From an alpha proteobacterium SCGC AAA536-G10 (GTDB taxonomy: Bacteria; Pseudomonadota; Alphaproteobacteria; Puniceispirillales; Marisalimonadaceae), in contig ARQU01000001.1 in assembly GCA_000384615.1 (NCBI GenBank), positions 213,685 to 277,684 on the forward strand: 64,000 nucleotides of DNA, given 5' to 3'. Under the pieces are notes generated by a model. That model was not told where the DNA came from. It did no database searches and saw only the letters and a list, made by a program, of their open reading frames with translations. A program made the translations under genes and the position numbers. Each line of letters starts with the position of its first letter. Within the stretch, counting starts at the first letter, position 1. Shown here one piece after another: positions 21,221 through 38,849 of this stretch.

Positions 21221-21249
21221 AACTTAGAAAATAGAAAAAATTTACGAAT

Positions 21250-22242: not shown

Positions 22243-22264
22243 TTATTAAAAACTCATTTAACTT

Positions 22265-23386
22265 TTATTTAACTTTACTTGCACCTTCAACTAAGGATTG
22301 TAGTTTTAAATAAGCAATATCTGGATCCACATTACCAAAACCTGCAAACGTTCCAAACCCACAATCTGTACCTGCTATCACTCTATCTTTTCCAACAATA
22401 TTGACAAACTTCTCAATCCTTTGTCTTACTAAAGAACTATGTTCAACAAAATTACTAGTAGTATCAAGAACTCCAGGGATGAGTATTTTGTTTTCAGGTA
22501 TTTTGTTTTTTAATTTTTCAAAAATTTCCCACTCATGTTGATGTCTGGGATTTGATGACTCAAAAAGTAGGTAATTACCCTTAAATGACATCAAGACGTC
22601 AAAAATCAGTTCAATAGATATATCGTGTATGTGTGGACCCTCATAATTCCCCCAACAAACATGAAGTCTCAACATTTCTGATGGAATATTTTTAAGGCTT
22701 TGATTGAGTATTTCCATATTTTCATAAGCAATTTTTATAAAATCTTTATCACTCTCACTTTTAAAAGTCATATGTCTAGATAAAGCTAAATCAGGGCAAT
22801 CTAACTGCAGTTTAATTCCAGAATTGACAATTGTCTCATATTCATCTTGCATAGCTGATGCAATTGCATCTAAATATTCATTTCTATTTGAATAATATGA
22901 ATTGCTAAGAAACAGAGATATCACTCCAGGGGAAGCTGCATTCATAAAGATTTTATTATGATTAAACTTTTTTGATGCCCTTAAAAGATTTTTAATATCA
23001 TTAGTTAAATCATTATTCTTTTTTGAAGAAATTTCTGCAACGCAGCAAGGCCGTGAATAAGTCGGTGTACCACCACTATCCGCAATTTTTTTCATATAAT
23101 TTGGAAACTTTTCTAAATCTTGTGGTGGATTCCTCTCACTATCACCAGCAAAGCCATTATACCTATCTTTCACATAAGTTGCATAAGATATTTTAGACAT
23201 TTCACCATCTGAAATTATATCAACGCCAACATCTAATTGTTTTTTTACAACTTCTTTTACACTCTTTGATATTACCTCTTCAAAATATTGCTGATTATAC
23301 TCCTCTTCCTTTTCTCTTTTAAAGAGTAAATCAGAAACCATCTTAGGTCTTGGAAGAGAACCTACATGTGTTGTTAAAATGGTCAT
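22265..23386 (-). CDS. Core-MetE-like zinc methyl/alkyl transferase
   Basis: This 373-residue protein matches only the catalytic C-terminal half of cobalamin-independent methionine synthase. It begins with the family motif HVGSLPRP. All four expected zinc ligands are present: His242 and Cys244 (LHVCWG), Glu276 (LLFESS) and Cys342 (GTDCGFG). Stand-alone proteins of this type include core methionine synthases and epoxyalkane:coenzyme M transferase, which activate a thiolate at zinc. It sits inside a catabolic operon with a sugar-type importer, cupin and SnoaL proteins. Transfer of a methyl or alkyl group from the imported compound to a thiol is therefore as likely as methionine synthesis. AAGGA precedes the ATG. 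Confidence 0.82.
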   Translation of the reverse strand: MTILTTHVGSLPRPKMVSDLLFKREKEEEYNQQYFEEVISKSVKEVVKKQLDVGVDIISDGEMSKISYATYVKDRYNGFAGDSERNPPQDLEKFPNYMKKIADSGGTPTYSRPCCVAEISSKKNNDLTNDIKNLLRASKKFNHNKIFMNAASPGVISLFLSNSYYSNRNEYLDAIASAMQDEYETIVNSGIKLQLDCPDLALSRHMTFKSESDKDFIKIAYENMEILNQSLKNIPSEMLRLHVCWGNYEGPHIHDISIELIFDVLMSFKGNYLLFESSNPRHQHEWEIFEKLKNKIPENKILIPGVLDTTSNFVEHSSLVRQRIEKFVNIVGKDRVIAGTDCGFGTFAGFGNVDPDIAYLKLQSLVEGASKVK

Positions 23387-23392
23387 TAAATA

Positions 23393-24355
23393 TTATTTCC
23401 TTTTAGTAGAGCCTGGTTTATCATCCGTAGGAATGACTTTATAAATTGAAGCAATGCCTGGCTTTGTAGGCTCTAATGTATATTTGTTATTTTTAGGAAG
23501 TGAAAACGTATCGCCTGGATTTAAAATTATGTCAAACATTTCAGACTTTATTCTCCAATATCCATAAACTGGCATAAAAACAACGTCTTTAGAATATATT
23601 CCATAGTTGTTTTTAGACTTATCTGAAATAAATTCGACTTCAAATCCTGGTTTATCATAAATTTTTCCTTTTTCACCTATTACTGTACATGGAGTTTCAA
23701 ATGATAAAGAATATAGGTCTAAATATCTCGCGACATAATAAGGAACAACCTCACTAGTTGAATATTCTAGAAAATTTTTAAGCTCATCATCTTCTAGAGG
23801 TTTCATTTCATTTTCATATTTAGGTATTTGTTGATCTTTAAGCGTGTTATAAATTTTACCTTTTTGCGATAAAATTAAACCATGTTTCTTAGCTTCAAAA
23901 AGCACTTCAGGTGCCCATATCACACCACCACCTGCATCATCGCCTCCTAAGATGGCCATTAGCATTCCGTAACTTTCTCCAATATTCTCAAATCCTCTAA
24001 AAATACCTGTCGGAATATTAAAAATGTCGCCTTTTTCAAGTATAACTTCTCCAGCGTTACCATAACGCCCCCAAAAAAACCTCCACCTACCAGACAAAAC
24101 AAAAAAAACCTCTGCAGTACGGTGACTATGAAGAGAATTATTACATTTTGGTGGTTGTCCAGCTGCCCCAATATTAAAGCCATGAGGTATATTTATATGA
24201 ACATGTTGTTCTGGATTTTCTGAAACACCAGAACCAATAATAGTAAAATTTTCTTTCTGATCAGAGCCTGGTGTATGAGTGTCTATAAAAGCAGTTTTGC
24301 ATGGTATCAATTCTCCATATCTAACTAACCTATTATTTATATTTAATTCGTTCAT
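23393..24355 (-). CDS. Double cupin-domain protein
   Basis: This 320-residue bicupin has a first barrel with metal ligands in LHSHRTAEVFFVLSG, then the GDIFNIPTGIFRGFENIG second motif. The second barrel (VFMPVYGYWRIK, then LNPGDTFSLPKN) lacks the histidines and is probably structural. The layout resembles gentisate-type ring-cleaving dioxygenases and bicupin isomerases. The first-barrel His-x-His and Glu could hold iron or manganese. It starts 16 bases after the triple SnoaL gene and ends six bases before the MetE-like gene, inside the nine-gene operon. GGGAAG lies before the ATG. An oxidative or isomerising step on the imported compound is inferred. Confidence 0.78.
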   Translation of the reverse strand: MNELNINNRLVRYGELIPCKTAFIDTHTPGSDQKENFTIIGSGVSENPEQHVHINIPHGFNIGAAGQPPKCNNSLHSHRTAEVFFVLSGRWRFFWGRYGNAGEVILEKGDIFNIPTGIFRGFENIGESYGMLMAILGGDDAGGGVIWAPEVLFEAKKHGLILSQKGKIYNTLKDQQIPKYENEMKPLEDDELKNFLEYSTSEVVPYYVARYLDLYSLSFETPCTVIGEKGKIYDKPGFEVEFISDKSKNNYGIYSKDVVFMPVYGYWRIKSEMFDIILNPGDTFSLPKNNKYTLEPTKPGIASIYKVIPTDDKPGSTKRK

Positions 24356-24371
24356 AATCTTCCCATCAATA

Positions 24372-25835
24372 TTAAAGTAATAATTGTTTCCAAATTGAAA
24401 TTTCGTCTATTAAAATGAACTCTCTTACAATTCCTTGTTTACCGAACTCGGCGTGAGAAATACCATAAATTTCAATTTCTTTGTTAGTTGGTAAGCCAAA
24501 AAACCCATTAGAGTTATGCAAGCAAATCAACCTCCATCTTAATGCAGCCCTTGGCCTCATATTATTTTGATCTAAAGCTATACTATTTGAAACTTCACAT
24601 TTTAAAATTTTAAAGCATGAAAGAAACAAATTCCATTTTTCATATATATTTTCAACAGTATTAATTAATTCTCCACCAAACCAATATAATTGAGCTGAAC
24701 GCTCATATATCTTTTTATCAAATGAAAATTTATTTTCCATAAGATTTATAATTGAATCTTTGTATGTTTTTGCGTGTATGTTCTCACAATCAGTCATTAT
24801 ATTTTTTTTGATAAATGAATTTTTTGTAAACTGAATATCATTTTTTTTAAACGTTCCATCACTAATTCGTTGTTCAACAAAATCACTTACTTTAAACCCT
24901 AATTGATTTAAAATACTTGCTTCGTCTCTAATAATCCATTCTTCTACAATTTTATTATTAACAACCAAGCAATCAGCTATGACCCTATATATAACATTCT
25001 TACCAGTCGCTTTACCATAAAACCCGTCGCCTACGTGAGTTCCTGTAGATAGGATCCTATGAGAACTAAGATATGTACTTTTTATAGATCCAAACGAAAT
25101 GACATCCTCACCAATTAACTGTCTATTTGGGAATTGCTCTAGAGTTTTATAGGTTGCTTGAACTACAGCATCACAATCGTACGTTGTAATACTTGGTGAT
25201 CTTACAATTACATCTGAAGAGTAATAGTTTCTGATATTTTCAACTTTCTTATTTTCCCAAATTTCTTCTGTAATTTTGTATATAAAATCTTCAATTTCGT
25301 TCTGATCAAGTGAATATTCGTTAATTAGAGTTTTTTTACAATCAAATTTTTCCCAACCTTCTCCTTTAAAAATATCAACCCCTAATTGTCTCATCACGTC
25401 TGGAAAATCTACCATCACCCAATTGTTAATAATTTTATTATCTTTGGTTTGCCAAAAATCCATATACCTTATGTTAACTTTTTTATTTGTTGGGCTTATA
25501 CCCATAAATGTTCCGCTATGCACTGCTTCTTGCCTTCCAAACGCAGCACCCCAATCTCCTTCGAACAGTCTAGCCTCGTCTACACAAACTTTTTCTGAAA
25601 AAGCTTTTTGAAATGGCACTTGCCAATTTTCTTGAAATTCTTTTAAACCTAGTTTAGTTCCACAACCATAATTCCCAAACCAGTTTAAATTTTCAGAGAA
25701 AAACTCTCCAATATCATCTATTCTATGGTCATTAAGTGCGACAACCATTTTCTCAATAATTTCTCTAGTAATTTTTGTTTTAGATAAATCATTAGAAGAA
25801 GTGAGAGTTGATTGCTCTATTATTTTATCTTTCAT
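24372..25835 (-). CDS. Triple SnoaL-like (NTF2-fold) domain protein
   Basis: The 487 residues divide into three SnoaL-like units: about 20-150 (RYMDFWQTKDNKIINNWVMV), 165-320 (RVIADCLVVNNKIVEEWIIR) and 340-487 (EIYGISHAEFGKQGIVREF). Each ends with the family-typical pattern of a strand, short turn and strand followed by an aspartate-rich helix. Three tandem copies in one chain are unusual. SnoaL domains bind hydrophobic or cyclic small molecules and may be enzymes or carriers. It starts 15 bases after the second sugar-type permease gene and precedes the cupin gene by 16. AGGAG lies about 12 bases before the ATG. Confidence 0.78.
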   Translation of the reverse strand: MKDKIIEQSTLTSSNDLSKTKITREIIEKMVVALNDHRIDDIGEFFSENLNWFGNYGCGTKLGLKEFQENWQVPFQKAFSEKVCVDEARLFEGDWGAAFGRQEAVHSGTFMGISPTNKKVNIRYMDFWQTKDNKIINNWVMVDFPDVMRQLGVDIFKGEGWEKFDCKKTLINEYSLDQNEIEDFIYKITEEIWENKKVENIRNYYSSDVIVRSPSITTYDCDAVVQATYKTLEQFPNRQLIGEDVISFGSIKSTYLSSHRILSTGTHVGDGFYGKATGKNVIYRVIADCLVVNNKIVEEWIIRDEASILNQLGFKVSDFVEQRISDGTFKKNDIQFTKNSFIKKNIMTDCENIHAKTYKDSIINLMENKFSFDKKIYERSAQLYWFGGELINTVENIYEKWNLFLSCFKILKCEVSNSIALDQNNMRPRAALRWRLICLHNSNGFFGLPTNKEIEIYGISHAEFGKQGIVREFILIDEISIWKQLLL

Positions 25836-25850
25836 TTATAATTAACACTC

Positions 25851-26741
25851 CTAACCTTTCACGGCACCTTGAGTTAAACCACTTACTAATTTAGTTTGAA
25901 AAAACATTATTAATATGAAAAGTGGTACAGTAGCAGAAACTACAGCCGCAACTGCGAACATAACATTTCCTTCAGTATAAGTTGTACCTAAAAAAGCAGC
26001 TATCTTTGGTATCATTGTTCTATTTTCATCAGATAAAAGCATAGAAGTAACTGCAAAATCATTATAAGCTAACAAAAAACTAAATAGTCCAGTAGTAATT
26101 ATTCCTGGCCACATGACAGGTACAATTACATGTCCAAAAGCTTGGTATTGTGAACAACCATCGACTTTAGCGCTCTCATCAAGTTCCTTCGGTATATTTT
26201 GAAAGAATGAATGTAACATCCACAAAGTAAATGGTTGGTTTATAGAAACTAACACTATGATTGTTGTCGGCAGAGTGCCCCATAGATTCCATTCAAAAAA
26301 AGGTGGAAGATAACCAGCAACAAGCGTAATTGGAGGCATTGCTCTGAAAATAAGTGCCATTATTAAAAGCCAAAATGTATATTTAAAATTTGATCGTGAA
26401 AGTGCGTATGCGCCAAGAGTACCTATTGTCAGTGAAGTAATCACGACAAAAAAACAGACTAAAGATGTGTTTATGAAAGCTTTCCAAAATTCTTCTTGAA
26501 CCCAAGCACCGTGGTATCCAATAAAAGTGAAAGGAGAACCATAAGTTTGTTCTGTATTTTTCCCAGTAATAGCATTAGTCCAATTTGATATTGAAAAAAA
26601 ATCTAATTCAACTTTGAAAGATCCCCAAAAAGTCCAAATAAAAGGAAAAGCAGCTACAAAAACCCATAAAAATATCAGGAAATAAATTATTATTGCCGTA
26701 AAGGAACTGTTTTTAGTACTTTTATTAGAATTAAAAATCAT
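25851..26741 (-). CDS. Carbohydrate-type ABC transporter permease (MalG/UgpE-like)
   Basis: This 296-residue inner-membrane protein has six transmembrane segments. The EAA loop is ELDESAKVDGCSQYQAFGHV followed by PVMWPG, which docks with the ATPase. It belongs to the MalG family. It overlaps the other permease gene by four bases (ATGA), showing coupled translation and paired assembly. With the MalF-like protein, binding protein and MalK-like ATPase of the same operon it forms an importer for a carbohydrate-like or related solute. Confidence 0.93.
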   Translation of the reverse strand: MIFNSNKSTKNSSFTAIIIYFLIFLWVFVAAFPFIWTFWGSFKVELDFFSISNWTNAITGKNTEQTYGSPFTFIGYHGAWVQEEFWKAFINTSLVCFFVVITSLTIGTLGAYALSRSNFKYTFWLLIMALIFRAMPPITLVAGYLPPFFEWNLWGTLPTTIIVLVSINQPFTLWMLHSFFQNIPKELDESAKVDGCSQYQAFGHVIVPVMWPGIITTGLFSFLLAYNDFAVTSMLLSDENRTMIPKIAAFLGTTYTEGNVMFAVAAVVSATVPLFILIMFFQTKLVSGLTQGAVKG

Positions 26742-27763
26742 TTTTTAAACTCAAATTCTTTCCATGTTTTTATTAAAACAGGTGAAAGTAAGATTATAAT
26801 ACCAAAAATAGTTAGTATAGAAGAAGTTGCTGCAGCAGATAACTGTCTTGTTTCACCTCCAAGATCGTTAAAAATAATCCAGCTCAATGAGGTTGCGTGA
26901 GCTTCTGCATTAAACCCAACGATTGGTTCAAATACTCTAAAATTATCCATTAGCTGCATTAATGTTACAAACGTAATTAGTGGCATTATGTGTGGTATAA
27001 TTATGTGTATGGTTTGTTGGAAAGTATTTGCACCGTCAATTTGGGCGGATTCTATTTGATCTTTTGGAAGGGTCTGTAATCCTGCATAAAAAACAATGAA
27101 TGAAAAAGGAATTGCATGCCATACCCCGTAAACAATTAACATTATCCAAGTTAAGAATGTAGATGCTTTAAGAGATAAACCTGGGTCTTCAAACAATATT
27201 TGTAAAAAGTTTCCTACAATTCCCCTACTATCTATCATCCAAAATAGTATTATCGAACCTATTAATGGCGTAACTATCATTGGTAGAAGAGAAAAGAAAA
27301 TAATTAACCCTTTTAATTTTTGATTAAATGAATCCACTCCTAAGGCAATTAATAGTCCGAGAACAAGCATTATTGGAGTAACTGTGAATGTGAAAGTCAA
27401 AGTGAAAAATAAGGCTTTATAAAATGGTAAATCAGCAGTTAATTTTAAAAATTCCAAAAAATTATTTGTATTTGACCATAAATTTTTGACCTGTTCAATT
27501 GCTAAATGACCCCTATCAAAATAAATGTCTAAACCAACATATTTGCCTAACGGGTTATTTTTTTTTAATTTTTGTGTAGCTTCATGATTTATAGAGGTAG
27601 CCTTTTTACAACCAAAAGGATCGCAGTTTTCTACGGTTATTAGAACATTTTCATGAGGGGTGTGAAATGATTGTATTGTAACAGAAATAATTGGCAATGT
27701 TATAAAGAAAAACATTGCCAAGAATGTTGGAAGTATAAACCAAAAGAAAGTTTTATGTTTCAT
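26738..27763 (-). CDS. Carbohydrate-type ABC transporter permease (MalF/UgpA-like)
   Basis: This 341-residue permease has an N-terminal membrane segment, a periplasmic segment of about 85 residues and then five further segments. The EAA loop IESAQIDGANTFQQ and HIIIPHIMP contact the ATPase. The periplasmic segment contains two nearby cysteines (NCDPFGCKK), which may form a disulfide. A nine-base-pair stem-loop ends eight bases before its ATG, just after the binding-protein gene, and probably lowers its expression relative to the binding protein. Confidence 0.92.
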   Translation of the reverse strand: MKHKTFFWFILPTFLAMFFFITLPIISVTIQSFHTPHENVLITVENCDPFGCKKATSINHEATQKLKKNNPLGKYVGLDIYFDRGHLAIEQVKNLWSNTNNFLEFLKLTADLPFYKALFFTLTFTFTVTPIMLVLGLLIALGVDSFNQKLKGLIIFFSLLPMIVTPLIGSIILFWMIDSRGIVGNFLQILFEDPGLSLKASTFLTWIMLIVYGVWHAIPFSFIVFYAGLQTLPKDQIESAQIDGANTFQQTIHIIIPHIMPLITFVTLMQLMDNFRVFEPIVGFNAEAHATSLSWIIFNDLGGETRQLSAAATSSILTIFGIIILLSPVLIKTWKEFEFKK

Positions 27764-27771
27764 CTTTTAAA

Positions 27772-27796
27772 ACTAGAGAGCCATAAACTCTCTAGT
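27772..27796 (-). terminator. Intercistronic stem-loop after binding-protein gene
   Basis: On the minus strand a perfect 9-bp stem (ACTAGAGAG with CTCTCTAGT) encloses a seven-base loop and is followed by TTTT. It starts six bases after the binding-protein stop and lies directly before the permease start. The position suits a partial terminator or mRNA-protecting hairpin that leaves more binding protein than permease. Confidence 0.65.
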
Positions 27797-27802
27797 CGCC
27801 TT

Positions 27803-29029
27803 TTATAAAAAACCTTTTTCTTTTGCAGAAGCTCTGTAAGCATCTTCTATGTCAGACAAAGTCTTTTTTGCTGATTCTTTACCTTGCATGAAATCGGATA
27901 TTTCTTTTCCGATTGCTGAATGCATTAATCCTGCATATGGTAACATTGGATAAGGAGTAGTGCTCATTTTTGCTGCTGCAAAAACACCTTTAGCTGCTTC
28001 TGTCGGCTTATAACCATCAATTAACCATACAGCTTGCTTTCTTATGTCATCTTTATCCATTATTGAAGGTCTAATAGCATTAGTCATTGCAATAAAAGTA
28101 GCTTCTGCTTCTTTATCACTTATTTTTTTAGCTATAGTCCAACCATCCCAAAACAATGTTGAAGCAGGAGTTTTACCTCCACCAACTGTCATAGGTCCAG
28201 CTATATCCATGCCATTTTTAACTTCATCACTAACACCATCAACATCTACCAATGTAGCAGCTCTACTACCCCACATATTCATAATAGCGACGTTTCCAGC
28301 TCTAAACTCAGCATTTGTAGCGTTACTATCATGGGTTAGAAAATCTGGATTCATATAACCAGACAAAGCTTTCATCATTTCAAGAGCTTTTACGCCAGAT
28401 TCAGAATTTACATTTGGTTCTGCAGTGTTGCCTTTAAAATGTGATCCTCCATAACCTATAAACATATTATTAAACTCTTGTGCTAAATTCCAGCCAGCTT
28501 TATAAGCTCCACCAACAGGATTTTTTAAAAGACCTGCGTCTCTTATTTTTTTTGCTGCAGATAACATTTCTTCATAGGTCTTTGGAACATCGATATTTAG
28601 TTTTTTCAAAATATCTTTTCTATAAACGAGATGTTGTGCATTAGCCATAAATGCTACTGCCATTATCTTACCATCAATGGTAATAAGTTGGTTCTTTTTC
28701 AAATCTTTACCATGTTTTTTAACTAAACTATCTAACGGTCTTATAAGATCTTCATTAAGCAATGCAACAATTGAAGTATTGGCGACTATAGCTGAGGTAT
28801 ATTCAGCCGGCTCACTACTCATACCTGCAACGTTAATTTTTTGATGATCTGCAGTTAAATTTGCTGATACTTTAGCTCCTTTACATTCTTTTGCACCAGA
28901 TCCAACTGTTTGAATTGCAGGAAACTCATTTCCAACAATACTAACTCTAGCAGAAATACTACATGCGAATGCGCTTGTAGATGTCAAAAAAATAATTGAA
29001 GATAAAATTTTTATTAAAAATAGTTTCAT
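27803..29029 (-). CDS. ABC transporter substrate-binding protein, family 1
   Basis: This 408-residue periplasmic binding protein has a cleavable signal peptide ending FLTSTSAFA before residue 23. It has the extracellular solute-binding family 1 layout, with PKTYEEMLSAAKKIRDAG and NVAIMNMWGSRA as typical lobes. The family binds oligosaccharides, glycerol phosphates and other polyols. The first mature residues contain two cysteines close to the cleavage site, but a lipobox is not evident. AAGGAG precedes the ATG. It lies between the ATPase and permease genes in the nine-gene operon. The ligand is unknown. Confidence 0.9.
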   Translation of the reverse strand: MKLFLIKILSSIIFLTSTSAFACSISARVSIVGNEFPAIQTVGSGAKECKGAKVSANLTADHQKINVAGMSSEPAEYTSAIVANTSIVALLNEDLIRPLDSLVKKHGKDLKKNQLITIDGKIMAVAFMANAQHLVYRKDILKKLNIDVPKTYEEMLSAAKKIRDAGLLKNPVGGAYKAGWNLAQEFNNMFIGYGGSHFKGNTAEPNVNSESGVKALEMMKALSGYMNPDFLTHDSNATNAEFRAGNVAIMNMWGSRAATLVDVDGVSDEVKNGMDIAGPMTVGGGKTPASTLFWDGWTIAKKISDKEAEATFIAMTNAIRPSIMDKDDIRKQAVWLIDGYKPTEAAKGVFAAAKMSTTPYPMLPYAGLMHSAIGKEISDFMQGKESAKKTLSDIEDAYRASAKEKGFL

Positions 29030-29042
29030 ATTTTCTCCTTGA

Positions 29043-30092
29043 TTAACTTAAATTAAAACCAGTTTTATTATCAAAAATCTGACACTTTGAAGACAAAATT
29101 GATATACTAACAACATCTCCTAGAGATGCATTAAAAGTATTACTCATTTTTACTGAAATAAAATTTTCTTCTATTTTCACTGTTACCATGGTCGCATCAC
29201 CTAAAAGCTCTATTGAAAAGATTGGTCCTTTAATATTTCCAGAAATACTCTTGATTATTTTACCATCTTCTGCACGAAATCCAAGCTTATATTTTCCATT
29301 TTTATGATTAAAATTTTCAATTTTTATATCTTTTGCAATAAAATCATTGTCCTTGATATTACCATTAATTAAATTCATAGGTGGGTTACCTATGAACGAA
29401 GCAACAAATGTATTTATAGGCTTGTCATAAATTTGTTTTGGTGTCCCAATTTGTTGAATAACACCCTTATTCATAACAACAACTCTATCAGCTAAAGTCA
29501 TTGCTTCAATTTGATCATGAGTTACATATATTGTAGTTATTTGAAGTTGGTTTTGTAAGTGTTTAATCTGCCCTCTAGTCGAAACTCTCAATTTAGCATC
29601 AAGGTTGGATAAAGGTTCATCCATTAAAAAAACATTAGGTTTTCTTACTAAAGCTCTTGCTAATGCAACTCTCTGTTTTTGTCCCCCAGATAGTTCAGCT
29701 GGTTTTCTGTGGCAAAAATCATTTAATTCAACTAAATTGATAGCCTCCATAACTAAATTATTCTGGTTTTCTCTAGGTACTTTTCTTATTTTTAGAGGAA
29801 ATCTAACATTTTCGTATACAGTCATATTTGGATATAAACCGTATGATTGAAATACCATAGAAATATCTCTGTCTTTAGGTTCTAAATCATTTACAATTTT
29901 ATTATCAATTTTGATAATTCCATCTGTTAAATCCTCTAACCCAGCTATCATTCTCATTGTAGTGGTTTTACCACATCCAGAAGGGCCTAATAACACTAAA
30001 AACTCTTTATCCTTAATTATTAAATTAAAATCAATTACAGCATTGAAATCACCCCAACTTTTTGACACTTTAATTAGTTCAATCTCTGCCAT
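29043..30092 (-). CDS. ABC transporter ATP-binding protein (MalK/UgpC-like)
   Basis: This 349-residue ATPase has Walker A GPSGCGKTT, Q-loop FQSYGLYP, signature LSGGQKQR, Walker B NVFLMDEPLSNLD and the switch His in YVTHDQIEAM. A C-terminal TOBE/regulatory domain of about 110 residues follows, as in the MalK group. It powers the importer formed with the two permeases. It starts 10 bases after the HAD-like gene and ends 13 bases before the binding-protein gene, firmly inside the operon. Confidence 0.93.
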   Translation of the reverse strand: MAEIELIKVSKSWGDFNAVIDFNLIIKDKEFLVLLGPSGCGKTTTMRMIAGLEDLTDGIIKIDNKIVNDLEPKDRDISMVFQSYGLYPNMTVYENVRFPLKIRKVPRENQNNLVMEAINLVELNDFCHRKPAELSGGQKQRVALARALVRKPNVFLMDEPLSNLDAKLRVSTRGQIKHLQNQLQITTIYVTHDQIEAMTLADRVVVMNKGVIQQIGTPKQIYDKPINTFVASFIGNPPMNLINGNIKDNDFIAKDIKIENFNHKNGKYKLGFRAEDGKIIKSISGNIKGPIFSIELLGDATMVTVKIEENFISVKMSNTFNASLGDVVSISILSSKCQIFDNKTGFNLS

Positions 30093-30102
30093 TTAATATC
30101 AT

Positions 30103-30756
30103 TTACCCTTCTTCAAAAAATGATTTTACAGATTTGAATATATCTTTGCTTATTAAAGAGCTTTCTTCATAAGTTGTATATTCACCCGGGTATAAAAGCG
30201 TCTGTATATTTGCATTCATTGCAGAACGACAGTTTTCTATAGTATTCTCAACTGCTAATGAATTTGAATGCATTACATCTAGTTTTTTTAATGCAAATTT
30301 ATAAATTTCAGGATCAGGTTTTCTTTTAGAAACAAGCTCATCATGGGTAATTAAGTCAAATTTTGAAAAATCAACCTGTTTTGATAAATTATTGATTACT
30401 AAATCTAGAGTATCCTTATTTGTAGTTGTAATAAAACCAATTTTAATATTATGAATCGACACATATTCAATAACTTCTAAAACTCCAGCCCTTGGTTTTA
30501 AATTTTTTTTCGATAATAATTTGAAATGTTTAATTTTTAATAAATGTATTTGTTTAGCATCATCTAAATTCAATTTATTTTTTGAAAATTCAATCAAACG
30601 ATTTAAACCACCAGGTTTTTCAAGCATTTTTATGTAATTAGCAACGTTCCAATACCAGTCAATACCAAATTCTTTAAAAGCTGCATTAAAAGCTTTCCTT
30701 TGAATTTCAGAACTTTCAACAATAGAACCAATAGAACCAAATAATAAAGACTTCAT
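30103..30756 (-). CDS. HAD-like protein with degenerate active site
   Basis: This 217-residue protein aligns end to end with HAD subfamily IA (CbbY/phosphoglucomutase-like) phosphatases, with the cap helices after EIQRKAFNAAFKEFGIDW. The catalytic motif I, normally FDxDGT, reads FGSIGS, so both aspartates (positions 7 and 9) are lost. Motif II keeps Thr near 110 (GFITTTNK) and motif III keeps Lys146 (KRKPDPE). Motif IV reads VENT, with Asn171 for the expected Asp. It is unlikely to be a phosphatase and may bind a ligand or regulate. It is the first gene of the nine-gene operon. The DNA reading at 30739-30721 confirms the changes. Confidence 0.83.
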   Translation of the reverse strand: MKSLLFGSIGSIVESSEIQRKAFNAAFKEFGIDWYWNVANYIKMLEKPGGLNRLIEFSKNKLNLDDAKQIHLLKIKHFKLLSKKNLKPRAGVLEVIEYVSIHNIKIGFITTTNKDTLDLVINNLSKQVDFSKFDLITHDELVSKRKPDPEIYKFALKKLDVMHSNSLAVENTIENCRSAMNANIQTLLYPGEYTTYEESSLISKDIFKSVKSFFEEG

Positions 30757-30862
30757 GACGTGTATAAAATAAGAAACATAAGTTTTTTCAAAAATTAGTT
30801 AAAAGAAATGATACATTTAAAATATTAATTACACTATCTTTAATCCTGAAGCCATCGATATA

Positions 30863-32560
30863 TTAAATTATAGATTCAATTTTTGGCATCAATCTTAAGA
30901 GTTCTTTAGTATAAAGATTTTTGGGATTATTAAAAATATTTTCAGTTTGATTTATTTCACAAATACGCCCTTTTTTAAGCACGGCTATTCTATTACACAT
31001 TTGACGAATTACTGGTAGATCATGGCTAATGAACAATATTGTTAGATTCAAGTGTTCTTGCAAATCTTTTAAAAGATTTAAGACTTGTGCTTGAATTGTA
31101 ACATCTAGGGCTGAAGTAGGTTCATCGCAGATAAGTAATCTTGGTTTTGTGGCGAGAGCTCTAGCAATAGAAATTCTTTGTCTTTGACCACCTGAAAATT
31201 CATGCGGAAATCTCTCAAGTGATGTTCTTGAAATACCTACAATATCAATTAAATCATTTACATTTTGATCTAAAGAATAATTATCAATATTATTTCTAAA
31301 AAACTTTATAGGTTCAGATATTATTTCCTTAATTTTAAACCTTGGATTTAATGAAGAGTATGGATCTTGAAATATCATTTGAATTTGACCTCTAAATTTC
31401 TTAATTTTCAATTTATTTCTTGGATCAAATAATGATAAGTTTTCAAAATAAATTTCTCCTTTTGTTGGATTAATCAAGCCACTTATAATTTTAGCTATAG
31501 TTGATTTTCCAGATCCAGATTCTCCAACTAATCCAAAAGATTCTCCTTCAAATATATTAAAAGAAACATTGTCTAAAGCTTTGATTTTATCCTCATCATT
31601 CTGTGAAGATAAAATTTTATTTTCATCAAATATCTTGGTAATATTTATAAAATCTAATAATTTTTTGTTACTTTTCTCTCTAATTTCCCAATTTTTAATT
31701 ATATTATTTGTTAACTTTAAAAAAGTATCAATTATCTGATTACCATCGGGGCTTAAAAATTTAAATCTATCAATTTTTTTGTTTGTAGGAGGTACAGACA
31801 TTACTAAACTTTTACATTCGATAGAAACTGGCTGTGACAAAACCTTATATGTTTTACCATGCTCGACAATCTTGCCATATCTCATAACTATTACTTTATC
31901 TGTGATTTCTGCTATTACACCCATGTCATGGGTGATAATTAAAACACCTAGTTTTCTATCAATTGTAAGTTTTTTTAAAAGTTTAAGTATCTTAAACTGT
32001 ATACTAACATCTAAAGCAGTCGTTGGTTCGTCTGCTATTAATAAATCTGGTTCACAACTTATAGCAAGGGCTATTACAACCCGTTGCCGCATCCCTCCAC
32101 TAAATTGGTGTGGATAGTCATTAATTCTTTTTTCAGGATTTTCTATTCCAACCTCTGTTAACAACTTAATCGATTTTTCAAAAGCTTTATTATAATTTAG
32201 GTCTGTATGTGTTTGAATTGTTTCGATCAATTGGTCTTTTATTGTAAATAGAGGGTTTAATGATGTTTGTGGATCTTGAAAAATAAAACCAATTTTTTTT
32301 CCTCTAATAGTTCTAACGACCTCTTCATTATTACATAATTCTGTTTCATCTAATGAAATTGATCCATTAGTAATCTTTCCAGGCTTGTCTATTAAATTAA
32401 TTATTGCGTTAGCAACTGTAGATTTTCCAGATCCTGATTCTCCAACTATCCCTATTATTTCACCTCTTTCTAAATTAAATGAAACATTCTTACTCGCACT
32501 GATTATTTCTTTTCGAGTTTGATATTCAATATCCAGATTATTTATTTTTAAAAACGTCAT
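30863..32560 (-). CDS. Dipeptide/oligopeptide ABC transporter, fused ATP-binding protein (DppD-DppF type)
   Basis: The 565 residues contain two complete ABC ATPase domains. Each has GESGSGKST, signatures SGGMRQR and SGGQRQR, and Walker B LLIADEPTTALD and LLICDEPTSALD. Such fusions replace separate DppD and DppF, as in YejF or GsiA. Each half has the family C-terminal extension; only the first is followed by a clear linker. It energises import of peptides through the two permeases encoded upstream, whose reading frame it overlaps by four bases. The gene closes the operon, with 106 bases to the next gene. Confidence 0.92.
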   Translation of the reverse strand: MTFLKINNLDIEYQTRKEIISASKNVSFNLERGEIIGIVGESGSGKSTVANAIINLIDKPGKITNGSISLDETELCNNEEVVRTIRGKKIGFIFQDPQTSLNPLFTIKDQLIETIQTHTDLNYNKAFEKSIKLLTEVGIENPEKRINDYPHQFSGGMRQRVVIALAISCEPDLLIADEPTTALDVSIQFKILKLLKKLTIDRKLGVLIITHDMGVIAEITDKVIVMRYGKIVEHGKTYKVLSQPVSIECKSLVMSVPPTNKKIDRFKFLSPDGNQIIDTFLKLTNNIIKNWEIREKSNKKLLDFINITKIFDENKILSSQNDEDKIKALDNVSFNIFEGESFGLVGESGSGKSTIAKIISGLINPTKGEIYFENLSLFDPRNKLKIKKFRGQIQMIFQDPYSSLNPRFKIKEIISEPIKFFRNNIDNYSLDQNVNDLIDIVGISRTSLERFPHEFSGGQRQRISIARALATKPRLLICDEPTSALDVTIQAQVLNLLKDLQEHLNLTILFISHDLPVIRQMCNRIAVLKKGRICEINQTENIFNNPKNLYTKELLRLMPKIESII

Positions 32561-33480
32561 CTTACTTTAAGTTTTGGATTTAAGGCGTCTCTCATCCAAT
32601 CTCCTAGTAAATTGATTGATAAAGCAAGAACAACAAGAAAAATTGCAGGAAAAAAAGTTATCCACCATTCTCCTGAAAATAAAAAATTGTTTCCAAATCT
32701 AATTAATGTGCCTAAAGACGGGTTTGTAGGAGGAAATCCTACTCCTAAAAAACTAAGAGTAGATTCGGTTATAATTGCCTGCGACAATCCTATAGTAGAT
32801 ATTACCAAGATAGGTCGTAGAATATTGGGAAGAATATGTTTTATCATAATTACTATATCAGATAGACCAATTATTCTTCCAGCCAAAACATATTCTTTAT
32901 TTTTTTCAACAAGAGTAGCCGCTCTCGTAATTCTAGCAAATTGTGGCCATTCTGAAATTCCAATAGCTAAGATAAGAACGTATATTGCCATGTCATCATG
33001 AAGTGATTTATTAATAAACCCTCTTGCTATTCCATCAACCAAAAGAGCCATCAAAATACTAGGTATAGTCAGTTGAACATCGGTAAACCTCATCACAATT
33101 ATTTCGTAACGACCACCTAAATAACCAGCAGTAACTCCTAAAAAAACACCAAGAACCATAGCAAAAATTATTGAAGCAAATCCAACTATTAAAGAAATTT
33201 GTGAACCATATATTATGGTTGACAACATATCCCTACCTTGTTGATCAGTTCCCAAAATAAATTCCACACTTCCACCAATAGACCATATTGGTGGTGTAAA
33301 AGCATCCATTAGAGAAATACTCTTGGGGTCAAAAGGATTGTAAGGAGCTATCAAAACAGCAAATAATGAGGTAATCATAATTGCTAAAAATATGATTGAA
33401 GAAATAATAGCAACTTTAGACTTTGAAAAGCTATATCCAATATCTGTATCTAAAAAATTTTTAATAATTTGACGTATCAT
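32557..33480 (-). CDS. Peptide-type ABC transporter permease (DppC-like)
   Basis: This 307-residue inner-membrane protein has an N-terminal segment plus five more spans. It includes the DppC signature FILGTDQQGRDMLSTIIYGS after the first span and the EAA loop around AGRIIGLSDIVIMIKHILP. It overlaps the gene before and the gene after by four bases each, so the set dppB-dppC-fused ATPase is translationally coupled. Together with DppB it forms the channel for peptides or similar solutes such as opines or nickel complexes. Confidence 0.92.
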   Translation of the reverse strand: MIRQIIKNFLDTDIGYSFSKSKVAIISSIIFLAIMITSLFAVLIAPYNPFDPKSISLMDAFTPPIWSIGGSVEFILGTDQQGRDMLSTIIYGSQISLIVGFASIIFAMVLGVFLGVTAGYLGGRYEIIVMRFTDVQLTIPSILMALLVDGIARGFINKSLHDDMAIYVLILAIGISEWPQFARITRAATLVEKNKEYVLAGRIIGLSDIVIMIKHILPNILRPILVISTIGLSQAIITESTLSFLGVGFPPTNPSLGTLIRFGNNFLFSGEWWITFFPAIFLVVLALSINLLGDWMRDALNPKLKVR

Positions 33481-34460
33481 TTATTTGTTTCTTCTTCTTT
33501 GAATCTTATTCTTGGATCAATAAAGTAATACGCTATATCAACTATAAAATTTATCATAACAAATAAAAATGCAACCATAATCAAGTAAGCTGACATTATT
33601 GGAATATCAACAAATTGAACTGCATTTATAAATAATAAACCCATACCAGGCCATTGAAATACAGTTTCTGTAATAATGGAAAATGCTATTAGAGTACCAA
33701 CATTTATACCCGTTATAGTTATAACTGGTATCAAACCATTTTTAAGAGCATGCTTGTTATTAATAACTTTTTTATTAATTCCTCTTGCTCTTGCGAATTT
33801 GATATAATCAGTTTCCAAAATCTCCATCATCTCAGCTCTAACAAGTCTAATAATATAAGTCATTTGAAATAGACTTAACGTAATCGAAGGTAGTATTAAT
33901 GCTTTTATTCCACTCAAAGTCAAAAAACCTGTAGACCAAAAACCAAAATTGACTACTTCTCCTCTACCAAAAGAGGGTAAAATGCCAAGAATAACTGAAA
34001 ATAAATATATGAATAAAATTCCAATAACAAAAGTTGGGAGAGATACACCGAAAAGTGATGTAACTAATATGAAGTTACTGACTAAACCTTCACGATTAAT
34101 TGCAGTATATACACCCAAAAATACTCCAAAAAAAATTGCAATTAAGGCCGAAACTAAAACTAATTCAAGTGTGGCAGGTAATCGTTCAGAAATTAAAAGT
34201 GAAACTGGTCTTCTTAATTCATACGACAACCCAAATTCTCCATTTGAAGCATTAACAACAAATTTAAAAAATTGGGTATAAACAGGATCTTTCAATCCAA
34301 GTTTTTCTCGAATTTCCTCCCTAGTTTCTTCACTAGCCTCTTGTCCAACCATATTGTTTACAGGATCACCTACAAAGTTAAACAATGAAAAAGATACAAA
34401 ACCCACAATAAGCATAACAAGAATTGACTGAAGGAGTCTTTTTAAGAAATATTGAAACAT
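33477..34460 (-). CDS. Peptide-type ABC transporter permease (DppB-like)
   Basis: This 327-residue permease has the DppB N-terminus FLKRLLQSILVMLIV, the GLKDPVYTQFFKFV block and the EAA region ARARGINKKVINNKHALKNG. The C-terminus DIAYYFIDPRIR is typical of the family. It starts 66 bases after the binding-protein gene, beyond a strong stem-loop, and overlaps the next gene by four bases. It is part of the peptide-type importer. Confidence 0.92.
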   Translation of the reverse strand: MFQYFLKRLLQSILVMLIVGFVSFSLFNFVGDPVNNMVGQEASEETREEIREKLGLKDPVYTQFFKFVVNASNGEFGLSYELRRPVSLLISERLPATLELVLVSALIAIFFGVFLGVYTAINREGLVSNFILVTSLFGVSLPTFVIGILFIYLFSVILGILPSFGRGEVVNFGFWSTGFLTLSGIKALILPSITLSLFQMTYIIRLVRAEMMEILETDYIKFARARGINKKVINNKHALKNGLIPVITITGINVGTLIAFSIITETVFQWPGMGLLFINAVQFVDIPIMSAYLIMVAFLFVMINFIVDIAYYFIDPRIRFKEEETNK

Positions 34461-34485
34461 TTAAAATATTTATAGTTTATTTTGA

Positions 34486-34520
34486 AACAATGCCAGTTAA
34501 TGTTTAAAACTGGCATTGTT
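34486..34520 (-). terminator. Intercistronic stem-loop after dppA-like gene
   Basis: A perfect 13-bp stem (AACAATGCCAGTT with AACTGGCATTGTT) encloses a nine-base loop. It starts six bases after the binding-protein stop and lies 25 bases ahead of the permease start. No long T-run follows on the minus strand, so it is more likely an mRNA-stabilising or partially terminating hairpin than a full terminator. Confidence 0.65.
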
Positions 34521-34526
34521 GTTTGT

Positions 34527-36086
34527 TTAGTTTACTTTAGCAAAACGAAAAAGTGGCTCGTTATTTGTTCTAATAGGTATATTAACATTACTCTTTGTTC
34601 CCCAGGAAATTACTTGGTGGTGAAGAGGCAAATAAGGCATATTATCTTGAACAATTGACCAAGCTTCTGCGATATTAGCGTTTCTCTTGTCTAGATTTGT
34701 TTCTGTCAACATAGTACCCACTAATTCGTCAACCTTTTCATTTTTAAAACCAGATTTATTCCAACTTCCATCGGATTTTAAGAGAAATGAATATACATAA
34801 TGACTATCAAACGTTGGAACACCCCAGCCCAACATATAGAAATCACTTAAACCACCTTTTAAGTCTTTAAAGTGAATACTTTTTGGTTGAGCATCTAAAT
34901 TTACCTTTATACCAACCTTTGCAAGCATACCTACAGCAGCCACACAAATTGCTTCATCGTTAATGTATCGGTTATTTGGACAGTCTAAAGTTATTTCAAA
35001 GCCTTTAGGATATCCGGCATCAGCTAAAAGTTTTTTAGAAAGATTAGGGTCATATGATAATCTTTTATCTAATTGCTTTGTGTAACCCTGAACACCTGGG
35101 AAAGTTATCATACCAGCTGGCTCACTTAAACCTCTCATAATTTTTTCTTTAATAGCATTCATATCTAGAGCATGGTAAAAAGCAAGTCGCACTTTCTTAT
35201 CTTTAAAAGGATTTTTTCCTTTAACATTAGACGACCGCAATTCATCAACGCCTTGATCCATACCAAAGAAAATTGTTCGAGATTGAGCCGCACTTACTAC
35301 CTTATGCATTGAAGAGCTTTTAATCCTATTTATATCCTGGGCTGGTGTAAAATTAGTAAAGTCGATGTCACCTGAAAGAAGAGCTGCAACTCGTGTAGCA
35401 TCATTTTTAATTGGCAGCAGTTCAATTTTATCTATGTTATGTTGAGATTGATCACCCCACCAGTTGTCATTTCTCTCAAAGACAGTTCTTGTGTTTTGTT
35501 CTCTTAAAGTAATTTTAAATGGCCCTGTACCCATAGCATTTATAGAGCAAAATGTTTCCTGAGAGGCATTATAATCTTGTGCTGTTTCACAACCATTTTT
35601 CTTTGACCATGATTCAGACATTATAAATATTTGGACTAATTGATTTAGTAAAATAGGGTTTGGACCCTTAGTTTTAATCTCAATCGTTGAATTGTTTAAA
35701 GCTTTGACTGAAGTAATACTATTGATCAGTTCTTTCACATCAGAAGTTCCAGTTAAAGCTCTATTAATACTAAATTCAACATCACTAGCTTTTAGTAAGC
35801 TTCCATCTTGGAATTTTACACCTTTTCGCAATGTAAAAACCCAAGTTTCTGGATCAGTTGTTTTCCATGAAGTAGATAATTGAGGCTTAATAGACATATC
35901 AATTGCTCTTGTAACAAGTCCTTCATAAACTTGCCTAGAAACCATGTGTGTAGGCCCCTCATTTTGCGCATGTGGATCTAGTGTAAGAGAGTCTCCCGGC
36001 ATAGACCATTTAATAGTTGCAGCATATAGAGGAGAAAATATACTAACAAAAATCATAGTTACGATTAACTTAGTTAATATCTTCAT
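34527..36086 (-). CDS. Peptide-type ABC transporter substrate-binding protein (DppA-like, family 5)
   Basis: This 519-residue periplasmic protein has a signal peptide (KLIVTMIFVSIFSPLYA). It has the family 5 layout with QVYEGLVTRAIDMS, WVFTLRKGVKFQDG and FFGMDQGVDELRSS blocks. Members bind di- and oligopeptides, and some bind other solutes. AGGAAGGA lies a few bases before the ATG. It is the first gene of the leftward operon with dppB, dppC and the fused ATPase. A stem-loop after its stop should raise its yield relative to the membrane parts. Confidence 0.92.
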   Translation of the reverse strand: MKILTKLIVTMIFVSIFSPLYAATIKWSMPGDSLTLDPHAQNEGPTHMVSRQVYEGLVTRAIDMSIKPQLSTSWKTTDPETWVFTLRKGVKFQDGSLLKASDVEFSINRALTGTSDVKELINSITSVKALNNSTIEIKTKGPNPILLNQLVQIFIMSESWSKKNGCETAQDYNASQETFCSINAMGTGPFKITLREQNTRTVFERNDNWWGDQSQHNIDKIELLPIKNDATRVAALLSGDIDFTNFTPAQDINRIKSSSMHKVVSAAQSRTIFFGMDQGVDELRSSNVKGKNPFKDKKVRLAFYHALDMNAIKEKIMRGLSEPAGMITFPGVQGYTKQLDKRLSYDPNLSKKLLADAGYPKGFEITLDCPNNRYINDEAICVAAVGMLAKVGIKVNLDAQPKSIHFKDLKGGLSDFYMLGWGVPTFDSHYVYSFLLKSDGSWNKSGFKNEKVDELVGTMLTETNLDKRNANIAEAWSIVQDNMPYLPLHHQVISWGTKSNVNIPIRTNNEPLFRFAKVN

Positions 36087-36213
36087 TTTGTATCCTTCCT
36101 GTAAATTTTATAATAACAATTTAATAAATGTATAAATGATAGAATTTTAAAATGACATATTTGATAGATATGTAAATTTAAAAATTAAAATGAATAAGAA
36201 ATATATAAAATTA

Positions 36214-38115
36214 TTATTCAAAACCGTATTTTAACAAAACTTCTTCGTAAATAGGATAGCTTAAACGTTCATTATTATACTTTTTAAAAATATCGTAAAT
36301 TTTTAAAAGTTTATTACCCTCTATTGATTTTTTCACATTTTCAAAATGTTTTTTAGCTAAATCAAATTTATTTGCAAAATGCGCAGCTACTCCAGAATGG
36401 ATTTCAAAGAAAAAATTTCCATTATGTGGCATTGGACTCATCATTTTTAGGGCATTTTTACCATCTTTTACTATATTATAGCATACTGCCAACATATAGT
36501 TGTCCATAGTAGCAAAATTACCGGTATCTAATTTATGAGCTTTAAGACCCATTTCCCAGCAACCTTTGTGAAATTGACATTGTTTGTTTTTGTTTAATTT
36601 AGGTTTTTCACTAATTTTAGTAACTTCATCTAAAGTACATAAACCACCAAATGCAACATTTACAGCCAAATTACTAAGCACACTTGGATCACTAACGTTT
36701 AATTCATAAGCCCTGTCGGCAATATTAAACATTTCTTCCCAGTTTTTTTTGTGAAACTCGATCATTGTTTTAACAGATAAACCTTTAGGTGAAAGAGGGT
36801 CGAGTAGAAGACCTTTATCAATGTATTTATTAGCATCTTTCAATAGATGATCATATTCACCTTTAGGATAATCAGCATATAATTTTCTAGTAATTTCTGC
36901 TAACCAAATCCAAGATGGCGCATAATTCGGATCTTTTTTTACAGATTCTTTTAAACATTCTATTGCTTTTGATCTATACTTACGATGGTTTGTTTTAGCT
37001 TTTCTAGCTAAATTAACACACTCATAGATTGAAAGATCATCAGTACTAACAGTTTCTATTTTTTTGTTAATGTCTTTTAATAAAATAGCCCCAGTCCCTA
37101 CAAGCTGGTTTACAATCTCGTTAATAATCATATCTTGAAGTATAAAAATATTCTGTCCAGTTAGTTCCTTATCATAAGTTTCTGACCAAACATTTGAAAC
37201 ACTTTCTCCTTCAATAAGGTCAACTTTAACCCTCAAGATATTATCAATTTTTCTTATATTCCCATCTAATATATAAGAAGCTTGAGTTTTTTTTGACAAA
37301 GCTTTTAAGTCATCTGGTCTTTTATTTATATTCATTATATTTAGTGATTTAGACGATTTTGTTAACTTTGTACCTAAATCTTGAGACAAGCCTAAAGCTA
37401 ATAAATTTTCTTTTTCTGAAGCATTTAAACTTTTAAAAGGAAGAACTATTATTTTACTTGTATCTAATCTTTTATTAATTTCAAATATTCCGGAGAAGAA
37501 TAATCCTATGAAGACGGCAGCTATAGCTCCTCCTATCATAGCTACTAGTTTAGTGTTTGATGATTGTGTTTTAAGCTTTCTCTTTTGTGATGGATCTAAT
37601 AATAGATCATAAGCATAAAATTGATTTTCTTTTACTTTTTGTATTCCTAAATCATTGAACTCATACTTTGTTTTATTAGCTACCAGATCATAAACATTCT
37701 TGGATATTGTTATTCCACCTGACTGAGCTAAAGCTTCTAATCTAGCTGCTACATTAACACCATCTCCCATAAGGTTAGCATCACCCTGTTTAACAACATC
37801 ACCCATATTGATACCTATGCGGTATTCTAGCTTAACATCTGTTGTATCTTTATCATTACGAGCTTTAATTTGTTTTTGGAACTCTACAGCTGTGTTAACT
37901 GCAGCGACTGCACTGGGAAACTCTGCAAAAACGGAGTCTCCTCCAGTATTGAATATACGGCCTTTTTGTTTTTTTATCAGAGGCTCAATGATCTTATTAC
38001 AGTCATTTAAACTGGCTAGAGTAGCATCCTCATCTTTTTCCATGTGTTTGCTATAGCCAACAACGTCAGTAGCAAATATCACTGCTATTTTACGATCTAT
38101 GTCTGAGGAGCTCAT
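36214..38115 (-). CDS. Class III adenylate cyclase with membrane span and TPR-like region
   Basis: The 633 residues comprise a cytoplasmic class III cyclase domain (about 8-180), one transmembrane span near 190-212 and a large C-terminal region. The metal aspartates are Asp17 (FATDVVGYS) and Asp60 (TGGDSVFAEF), and MGDGVNVAARLE gives the catalytic Asn/Arg. The C-terminal region first resembles a TolB-N-like domain (SKIIVLPFKSLNA), then carries TPR-like helices. This is the common alphaproteobacterial CyaX type, probably sensing something outside the membrane. It is divergent from a cyclic-nucleotide-binding gene 272 bases away, so it may feed that protein. Confidence 0.9.
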   Translation of the reverse strand: MSSSDIDRKIAVIFATDVVGYSKHMEKDEDATLASLNDCNKIIEPLIKKQKGRIFNTGGDSVFAEFPSAVAAVNTAVEFQKQIKARNDKDTTDVKLEYRIGINMGDVVKQGDANLMGDGVNVAARLEALAQSGGITISKNVYDLVANKTKYEFNDLGIQKVKENQFYAYDLLLDPSQKRKLKTQSSNTKLVAMIGGAIAAVFIGLFFSGIFEINKRLDTSKIIVLPFKSLNASEKENLLALGLSQDLGTKLTKSSKSLNIMNINKRPDDLKALSKKTQASYILDGNIRKIDNILRVKVDLIEGESVSNVWSETYDKELTGQNIFILQDMIINEIVNQLVGTGAILLKDINKKIETVSTDDLSIYECVNLARKAKTNHRKYRSKAIECLKESVKKDPNYAPSWIWLAEITRKLYADYPKGEYDHLLKDANKYIDKGLLLDPLSPKGLSVKTMIEFHKKNWEEMFNIADRAYELNVSDPSVLSNLAVNVAFGGLCTLDEVTKISEKPKLNKNKQCQFHKGCWEMGLKAHKLDTGNFATMDNYMLAVCYNIVKDGKNALKMMSPMPHNGNFFFEIHSGVAAHFANKFDLAKKHFENVKKSIEGNKLLKIYDIFKKYNNERLSYPIYEEVLLKYGFE

Positions 38116-38305
38116 TTAGATACAATAGACATAAATTTTATATATTTTCAATAGTTATTTGGAAATATCTTAGTTGAAACATAGCTAAGTTATTTTTCTT
38201 ACATTAAGCTGTAATTATATAAGTAATGTCACCAAAAAAATTCTAATATTTATGAGAATAACTTAATCCCAAAATGATACTAAGCTATTGAAATAATTTA
38301 ATAAA

Positions 38306-38333
38306 TTGACTTTTAAATAAAAAACACTAAAAT
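38306..38333 (+). promoter_or_regulatory. Promoter for cyclic-nucleotide-binding protein gene
   Basis: TTGACT (38306-38311) and TAAAAT (38328-38333) are 16 bases apart, each one base from consensus. The ATG at 38388 lies 54 bases further on. The rest of the 272-base gap to the divergent cyclase gene holds only AT-rich sequence and a weak CTTAG/CTAAG inverted repeat near 38170-38190. Confidence 0.55.
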
Positions 38334-38387
38334 ATTTTCACTTTTATGACGTAACAATTATTGTACCAAAAAAAAGTAAAATGTTAT

Positions 38388-38849
38388 ATGAATGACTTTA
38401 TACAAAATGAAAAATTAAACAGTACTTTTTCTAAAAGAATTTTAGAAAAAAATGAACTTTTGTTTCGCCAAGGGGACCTTATTGGAGATGGATATATTAT
38501 AAATTCTGGAGAAATAATGCTTGAAAGAAATAATATAAAAATCGAAAAATTAGGAAAAGGAGAGGTTTTTGGAATATTTAATCTTTTTTTTGAAAACAAA
38601 ATACGATTTTTCTCTGCGCATACAATAGTTAATACAGAAGTACTTATCATTCCTCAAAAACATATAAAGAAAATTCTTAATAATTCAGATCCTTTCGTAA
38701 CACATATTTTTAGAAATTGGCTTAATTTAACTGGAAGATTTATGACAGATTTAAATAAAGAAGTTAAATTAAAAGAAAAAGTTTCAAAATTAAGTAAATT
38801 AGAAGAACTTCACAAAAAAAATGAAAATGACTGCCTAATTATCAATTAA
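38388..38849 (+). CDS. Stand-alone cyclic nucleotide-binding domain protein
   Basis: This 153-residue protein has a Crp/Fnr-like cNMP-binding fold. ILEKNELLFRQGDLIGDGYI and INSGEIMLER form the first strands, GKGEVFGIFNLFF the phosphate-binding cassette, and NTEVLIIPQKHIKKIL the last strand and C-helix. There is no helix-turn-helix; after the C-helix only a lysine/glutamate-rich tail remains. It cannot bind DNA in the Crp way and should instead bind another protein or act as a cAMP sensor. The cassette arginine may be the Arg of NKIRFFSA, but the match is loose. I prefer the ATG at 38388 to the TTG at 38361. The nearby divergent cyclase is the likely source of ligand. Confidence 0.78.
   Translation: MNDFIQNEKLNSTFSKRILEKNELLFRQGDLIGDGYIINSGEIMLERNNIKIEKLGKGEVFGIFNLFFENKIRFFSAHTIVNTEVLIIPQKHIKKILNNSDPFVTHIFRNWLNLTGRFMTDLNKEVKLKEKVSKLSKLEELHKKNENDCLIIN

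Follow-up and report, generated by a model that had tools for sequence, protein, structure and literature searches.

A putative CbbY-derived HAD pseudophosphatase associated with an ABC-importer gene cluster in marine Alphaproteobacteria

The window analysed here, a stretch of DNA of 64,000 nucleotides, contains a gene cluster lying entirely on the minus strand, whose first gene (positions 30103–30756) encodes a HAD protein of 217 amino acids in a frameshift-free reading frame with an ATG start. It is followed by the genes for the ATPase of an ABC importer (UgpC/MalK type; 29043–30092), an extracellular solute-binding protein (SBP_bac_1; 27803–29029), two importer permeases (UgpA-like, 26738–27763, and MalG-like, 25851–26741), a 487-aa protein with SnoaL-like domains (24372–25835), a cupin protein (23393–24355), a cobalamin-independent methionine-synthase-like protein of the MetE C-terminal family (22265–23386), which is used below as the pathway marker, and a 330-aa SnoaL-like protein (21250–22242), the cluster's final gene. 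The spacing bears out the statement of the earlier note that the HAD gene heads the operon, as 10 bp separate its stop codon from the start of the ATPase gene and a gap of 106 bp lies upstream of it. An Rfam scan of positions 20500–38500 found no RNA element, a promoter scan gave sites no commoner than in shuffled sequences, and a terminator was looked for and none was found. The region is flanked on one side by a protein matching Pfam Guanylate_cyc (36214–38115) and on the other by what we take, judged by eye, to be a second cyclase-like protein (20402–21220).

The HAD protein matches Pfam HAD_2 (E = 3e-18) and, weakly, the bPGM and HAD-IA models of NCBIfam. Its AlphaFold2 model is a confident, complete fold (mean pLDDT 87.6, pTM 0.82), and the HAD_2 match and the model both indicate the presence of the HAD Rossmannoid core and the C1 helical cap. 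In a phmmer search against solved structures, CbbY of Rhodobacter sphaeroides ranks best (7.5e-28), with Arabidopsis CbbY also among the best matches; searched with the AlphaFold2 model, Foldseek returns CbbY structures as its top matches (E 1.2e-15), and VIA gives CbbY a Z of 22.5 with 216 residues aligned at an rmsd of 3.0. Judged by sequence and predicted fold, the nearest solved relative is CbbY, a xylulose-1,5-bisphosphate phosphatase (RsCbbY, 4UAR/4UAT; AtCbbYA, 4UAV) which has the same C1-cap HAD-IA fold and about 24–27% identity to the window protein over nearly its full length. Beta-phosphoglucomutase (1LVH and variants), an active mutase with D8 and D10, also has the HAD-IA fold and shares about 17% identity with the window protein, in which equivalents of its S114/S116, K76, K145 and E169 are found. 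The same genome (G000) contains no intact paralogue, the sole other match being a distant HAD with 27% identity over residues 90–202.

In the alignment of motif I, the CbbY segment FDVDGTLAETEELHRRAFN lies opposite FGSIGSIVESSEIQRKAFN in the window protein, where residues 6–11 (FGSIGS; 30724–30741, minus strand) replace FDxDGT (FDVDGT in CbbY), and in motif IV (residues 169–172, VENT; 30241–30252, minus strand) AVENT lies opposite ALEDS. We take D8 to be the nucleophile, D10 the acid/base and D176 the metal ligand, as is established for CbbY and beta-phosphoglucomutase. The alignment with CbbY places G7, I9 and N171 at these three positions, the last being that of the Mg ligand, so the aspartates by which CbbY is recognised (D8 + D10 + D176) are absent, and the claim that all catalytic aspartates are lost holds for this protein, with the adjacent motif IV acid E170 retained. 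The motif II region (residues 110–112, TTT; 30421–30429, minus strand) aligns with T115/T117 of CbbY and S114/S116 of beta-phosphoglucomutase, and the motif III lysine K146 (30319–30321, minus strand) with K151 and K145, respectively. The window protein thus has the motif II Ser/Thr and motif III Lys of C1-cap HAD-IA proteins (T110, K146), with FGSIGS in place of their motif I, DxDx[TV]; the reading frame and the alignment bear out what the earlier note had stated of the intact frame, the motif II threonines (T110, T112) and K146. Of the CbbY residues, W37, Y42, R54, K78, T115/T117, K151 and E175 are conserved in the window protein, which has G, I, S and Q where CbbY has D8, D10, E17 and H20.

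The comparison set comprises 51 distinct dead forms, drawn from SAR116, a second small-genome marine alphaproteobacterial order and Rhodobacteraceae, and 35 intact CbbY-like relatives; a HAD match in G347 spanning residues 46–194 only, with motif I unreadable, is left out of the counts. In CbbY numbering, four positions separate the two sets without exception (51/51 against 35/35): position 8 is Gly in the dead forms and Asp in the intact ones, position 10 Ile/Val against Asp, position 17 Ser against Glu (E17→S; S16 in the window) and position 20 Gln against His (H20→Q; Q19 in the window). At least 98% of the dead forms keep T110 (or Ser, as in 6 of the 51), T112, K146, Y41, R53, K74, W36 and E170, the E170 of motif IV being invariant; T110, T112 and K146 align with the phosphate site, while Y41, R53 and K74 are cap-region residues. 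As R53 aligns with CbbY R54 and not with beta-phosphoglucomutase R49, its contact with phosphate is only assumed. Many positions outside this conserved core vary among the dead forms.

A single branch of the tree splits the dead from the intact forms (support 100/99), this split persists after removal of the motif columns (SH-aLRT 99), and the window protein falls outside the intact CbbY-like clade, in a separate clade (100/99). FGSIG or IGSIG is present in all full-length orthologues found among the SAR116 relatives. In the second order, whose assemblies measure 0.7–1.6 Mb, 92 of 150 genomes match the dead-clade profile and all 12 loci read contain FGSIG, while a verified dead copy occurs in 17 of 248 Rhodobacteraceae genomes; a Litoreibacter MAG (FGAIG) and a plasmid of Roseobacter litoralis also encode the dead form. 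Local mutation or sequencing error is ruled out, as all full-length orthologues share the loss, and the replaced motif cannot be a matter of chance, since it is fixed in 51 distinct homologues.

The earlier note had asked for an alignment with homologues, and in this alignment the loss at motif I is shared, with the motif replaced in 51/51 dead forms; no orthologue with an intact DxD turned up, the intact proteins being in a clade of their own. Its joint treatment of motifs I and IV stands for motif I, whose loss dates back to the common ancestor; in motif IV the replacement came later and at genus level, as D→N is seen in 13 of the 51 sequences, none of them from outside the window's genus, and the other 38 have Asp. 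Given the one-branch split and the restriction of D→N to that genus, the sequences indicate that the phosphatase chemistry disappeared a single time, at an early stage and through motif I, and that motif IV changed later in one lineage.

Five active-site positions have changed together and are now nearly invariant, which exceeds what loss alone requires, and the protein tracks a catabolic-looking pathway (see below). The G-[S/A]-I-G loop, together with S16 and Q19, might therefore support a non-phosphatase reaction that needs no Asp nucleophile, such as isomerisation or elimination on a sugar derivative. New chemistry of this kind is unlikely, as the protein could no longer ligate Mg and the window's genus has lost D171 too, and a working HAD enzyme with Gly in place of the nucleophile and Ile in place of the acid/base is not known to us.

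Estimated by the Nei-Gojobori method, dN/dS is about 0.13–0.26 for the dead HAD and 0.03–0.06 for the solute-binding protein, so the HAD is under purifying selection, weaker than that on the solute-binding protein, and evolves faster than its operon partners. Such faster evolution is compatible with relaxed constraint and not only with a non-catalytic role. G005 and G011, which yielded no solute-binding protein and no MetE-like marker, show only truncated HAD remnants, and G023, like these two an incomplete genome, contains on one contig a full copy and a second, N-terminal-only copy (L057, G023:C22:1302-1475, about 57 residues), the latter being either a duplication remnant or a single-cell assembly artefact. 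These three truncated copies and the dN/dS above that of the operon partners could be read as signs of a relic, a gene decaying since its phosphatase role was lost. That reading is highly improbable and already largely refuted, as dN/dS lies far under 1, the motif residues are invariant across deep divergence, the other SAR116 copies are full-length without internal stops, and so are the 92 matches of the second order, except one partial match. The intact frame, the shared ancient loss, the dN/dS values and the conserved phosphate-site residues together support an inherited, selective loss of the phosphatase chemistry as against decay, as had been suggested from the window alone.

In several species of the window's genus (L135, L136, L139, L140) the HAD gene directly precedes the ATPase gene, and in G027, G374, G200/L056 and G590 it lies within or beside the same cluster in differing arrangements. 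It is unlinked in G030, the G026/G029/G032 group and most Rhodobacteraceae, where the pathway is encoded elsewhere in the genome. The neighbours of the dead HAD gene in most Rhodobacteraceae (G590 is the exception) are unrelated to the pathway; judged by eye from the starts of the sequences, they are presumably aspS and carB. In relatives, the extended cluster adds a histidinol-dehydrogenase-family protein, an SDR, a LacI-type regulator and an RraA-like protein; NCBIfam gives the dehydrogenase the general hisD name only and, for the remaining pathway proteins, no equivalog above cut-off. Clusters combining an ABC importer, several SnoaL-like proteins, a cupin, a MetE-like protein, a histidinol-dehydrogenase-like protein, an SDR, a LacI-type regulator and an RraA-like protein recur across marine Alphaproteobacteria (L149, L154, L166 and similar loci).

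By Fisher tests, which ignore shared ancestry and draw on many incomplete genomes, the MetE-like marker occurs, as a close pathway orthologue (E up to 1e-138), in 7 of the 8 dead-form genomes of the class-wide sample, in which 21 of all 385 genomes have one (p = 4e-9), and in 79 of 92 dead-form genomes against 17 of 58 others in the second order (p = 3e-12), where HAD and marker lie at most 10 kb apart in 66 of the 79. The corresponding counts are 16/17 against 82/231 in Rhodobacteraceae (p = 2e-6), sampled at one genome for each of 248 genera, which eases the shared-ancestry problem and does not remove it. Of the SAR116 relatives, 16 of 18 genomes with the dead form also encode the solute-binding protein, against 5 of 23 others (p = 2e-5). 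The marker is found in only 7 of 36 Rhodobacteraceae genomes with intact CbbY. The dead form is thus tied, as a correlation, by gene order and co-occurrence to one ABC-importer/SnoaL/cupin/MetE-like pathway, which intact CbbY does not accompany. The link is not obligatory, since G031, G035 and G039 contain the pathway and no dead HAD; G144 has the dead form without the pathway cluster, and around the plasmid copy of Roseobacter litoralis, the part of that genome searched, no pathway cluster was found.

As the inactive form is kept in many marine relatives and travels with one uptake pathway, the dead HAD is probably a helper or sensor and not a broken gene. A role as ligand sensor, inhibitor or binder of a phosphorylated intermediate is plausible from the co-occurrence and the conserved phosphate-site residues. 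More specifically, and with middling confidence, we regard the protein as a CbbY-derived pseudophosphatase that may bind a sugar-phosphate-like pathway intermediate uncleaved and thereby help or control either the importer or one of the pathway's enzymes. Its origin lies in a sugar-bisphosphate phosphatase of the CbbY type whose nucleophile and acid/base aspartates disappeared a single time, in the ancestor shared by a clade now spread through marine Alphaproteobacteria; there motif I was re-fixed as G-[S/A]-I-G, and E17→S and H20→Q became fixed with it. The alignment and the model show that the protein has kept its cap, its fold and the residues found at the phosphate site of CbbY and beta-phosphoglucomutase. 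The intermediate could then be bound without cleavage, and the closed-cap, ligand-bound state would act on the importer or the enzyme; the dead HAD may report or buffer the bound compound for the pathway, or dock on a partner in the manner of PcrP.

HAD pseudoenzymes as such are already known, although bacterial ones with a known role are rare, and PcrP (PA2803) of Pseudomonas aeruginosa, a non-catalytic C1 HAD that binds protein partners (PMC12632274), is the sole one found here and, by analogy, the closest functional precedent. The PcrP/PA2803 subfamily (including PSPTO_2114, 2ODA) is likewise a bacterial HAD clade of C1 ancestry that has persisted after loss of catalysis; it is phosphonatase-related and described as pseudomonad-exclusive, whereas the present clade appears CbbY-derived, the best sequence and structure matches of the window protein being CbbY and its phosphonatase matches weaker (PcrP is not in the tree). 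Its members have lost the residues of motifs I–IV, including the motif II Ser/Thr and the motif III Lys/Arg, and have an abbreviated cap (PMC12632274), in contrast to the present clade, which keeps motifs II and III and the cap. Following PcrP, the dead HAD might no longer bind a small ligand and instead dock on the importer ATPase, a regulator or a pathway enzyme, a possibility to which we give distinctly less credence; it would suit the adjacency of the HAD and ATPase genes in the window's genus and the many variable positions beyond the conserved core, but this adjacency is not conserved in Rhodobacteraceae, and the retention of T110/T112, K146 and the cap, unlike in PcrP, suggests that ligand binding persists. 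Binding of a ligand is ranked first because the clade keeps the motif II/III residues and the cap that PcrP lost.

A literature search, which hardly covered subscription journals, found neither a CbbY-derived pseudophosphatase nor the present gene cluster. Annotation pipelines name the dead forms 'HAD-IA family hydrolase' (e.g. ROLI_RS23305), which is very likely wrong across the clade, and the conserved loop makes it easy to recognise from sequence the dead form, which marks an uptake pathway common to SAR116, the second small-genome marine order and Rhodobacteraceae. Because these proteins occur widely among marine bacteria and are linked to just one pathway, their ligand, partner and phenotype are open to direct testing. 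More speculatively, and with rather low probability, marine Alphaproteobacteria may have seen a single conversion of a sugar-phosphatase fold, either into a sensor that does not hydrolyse and is dedicated to a widespread, uncharacterised pathway of carbon uptake in the ocean, or into an enzyme of a new type serving that pathway, the G-[S/A]-I-G loop being its new functional signature.

Several related variants also occur. A related Rhodobacteraceae protein (L226, G564:C37:33400-34250) reads FNADGT, with D8→N and D10 kept, and its nucleophile loss is apparently separate from and independent of that of the dead clade. A more divergent dead subgroup (L220, L222, L223, L224 and L227, from G604, G502, G431, G652 and G562) contains FGGIG, FAGIG or FGGMG, with E-C-A-[D/E]-[L/M]-D-R replacing ETSE-IQR, and the MetE-like marker is present in four of its five genomes. 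Two or three dead HAD paralogues are encoded in the Rhodobacteraceae genomes G638 (L174, L250, L251), G647 (L179, L253) and G482 (L180, L254), one of those in G638 having the altered loop FGSLQT.
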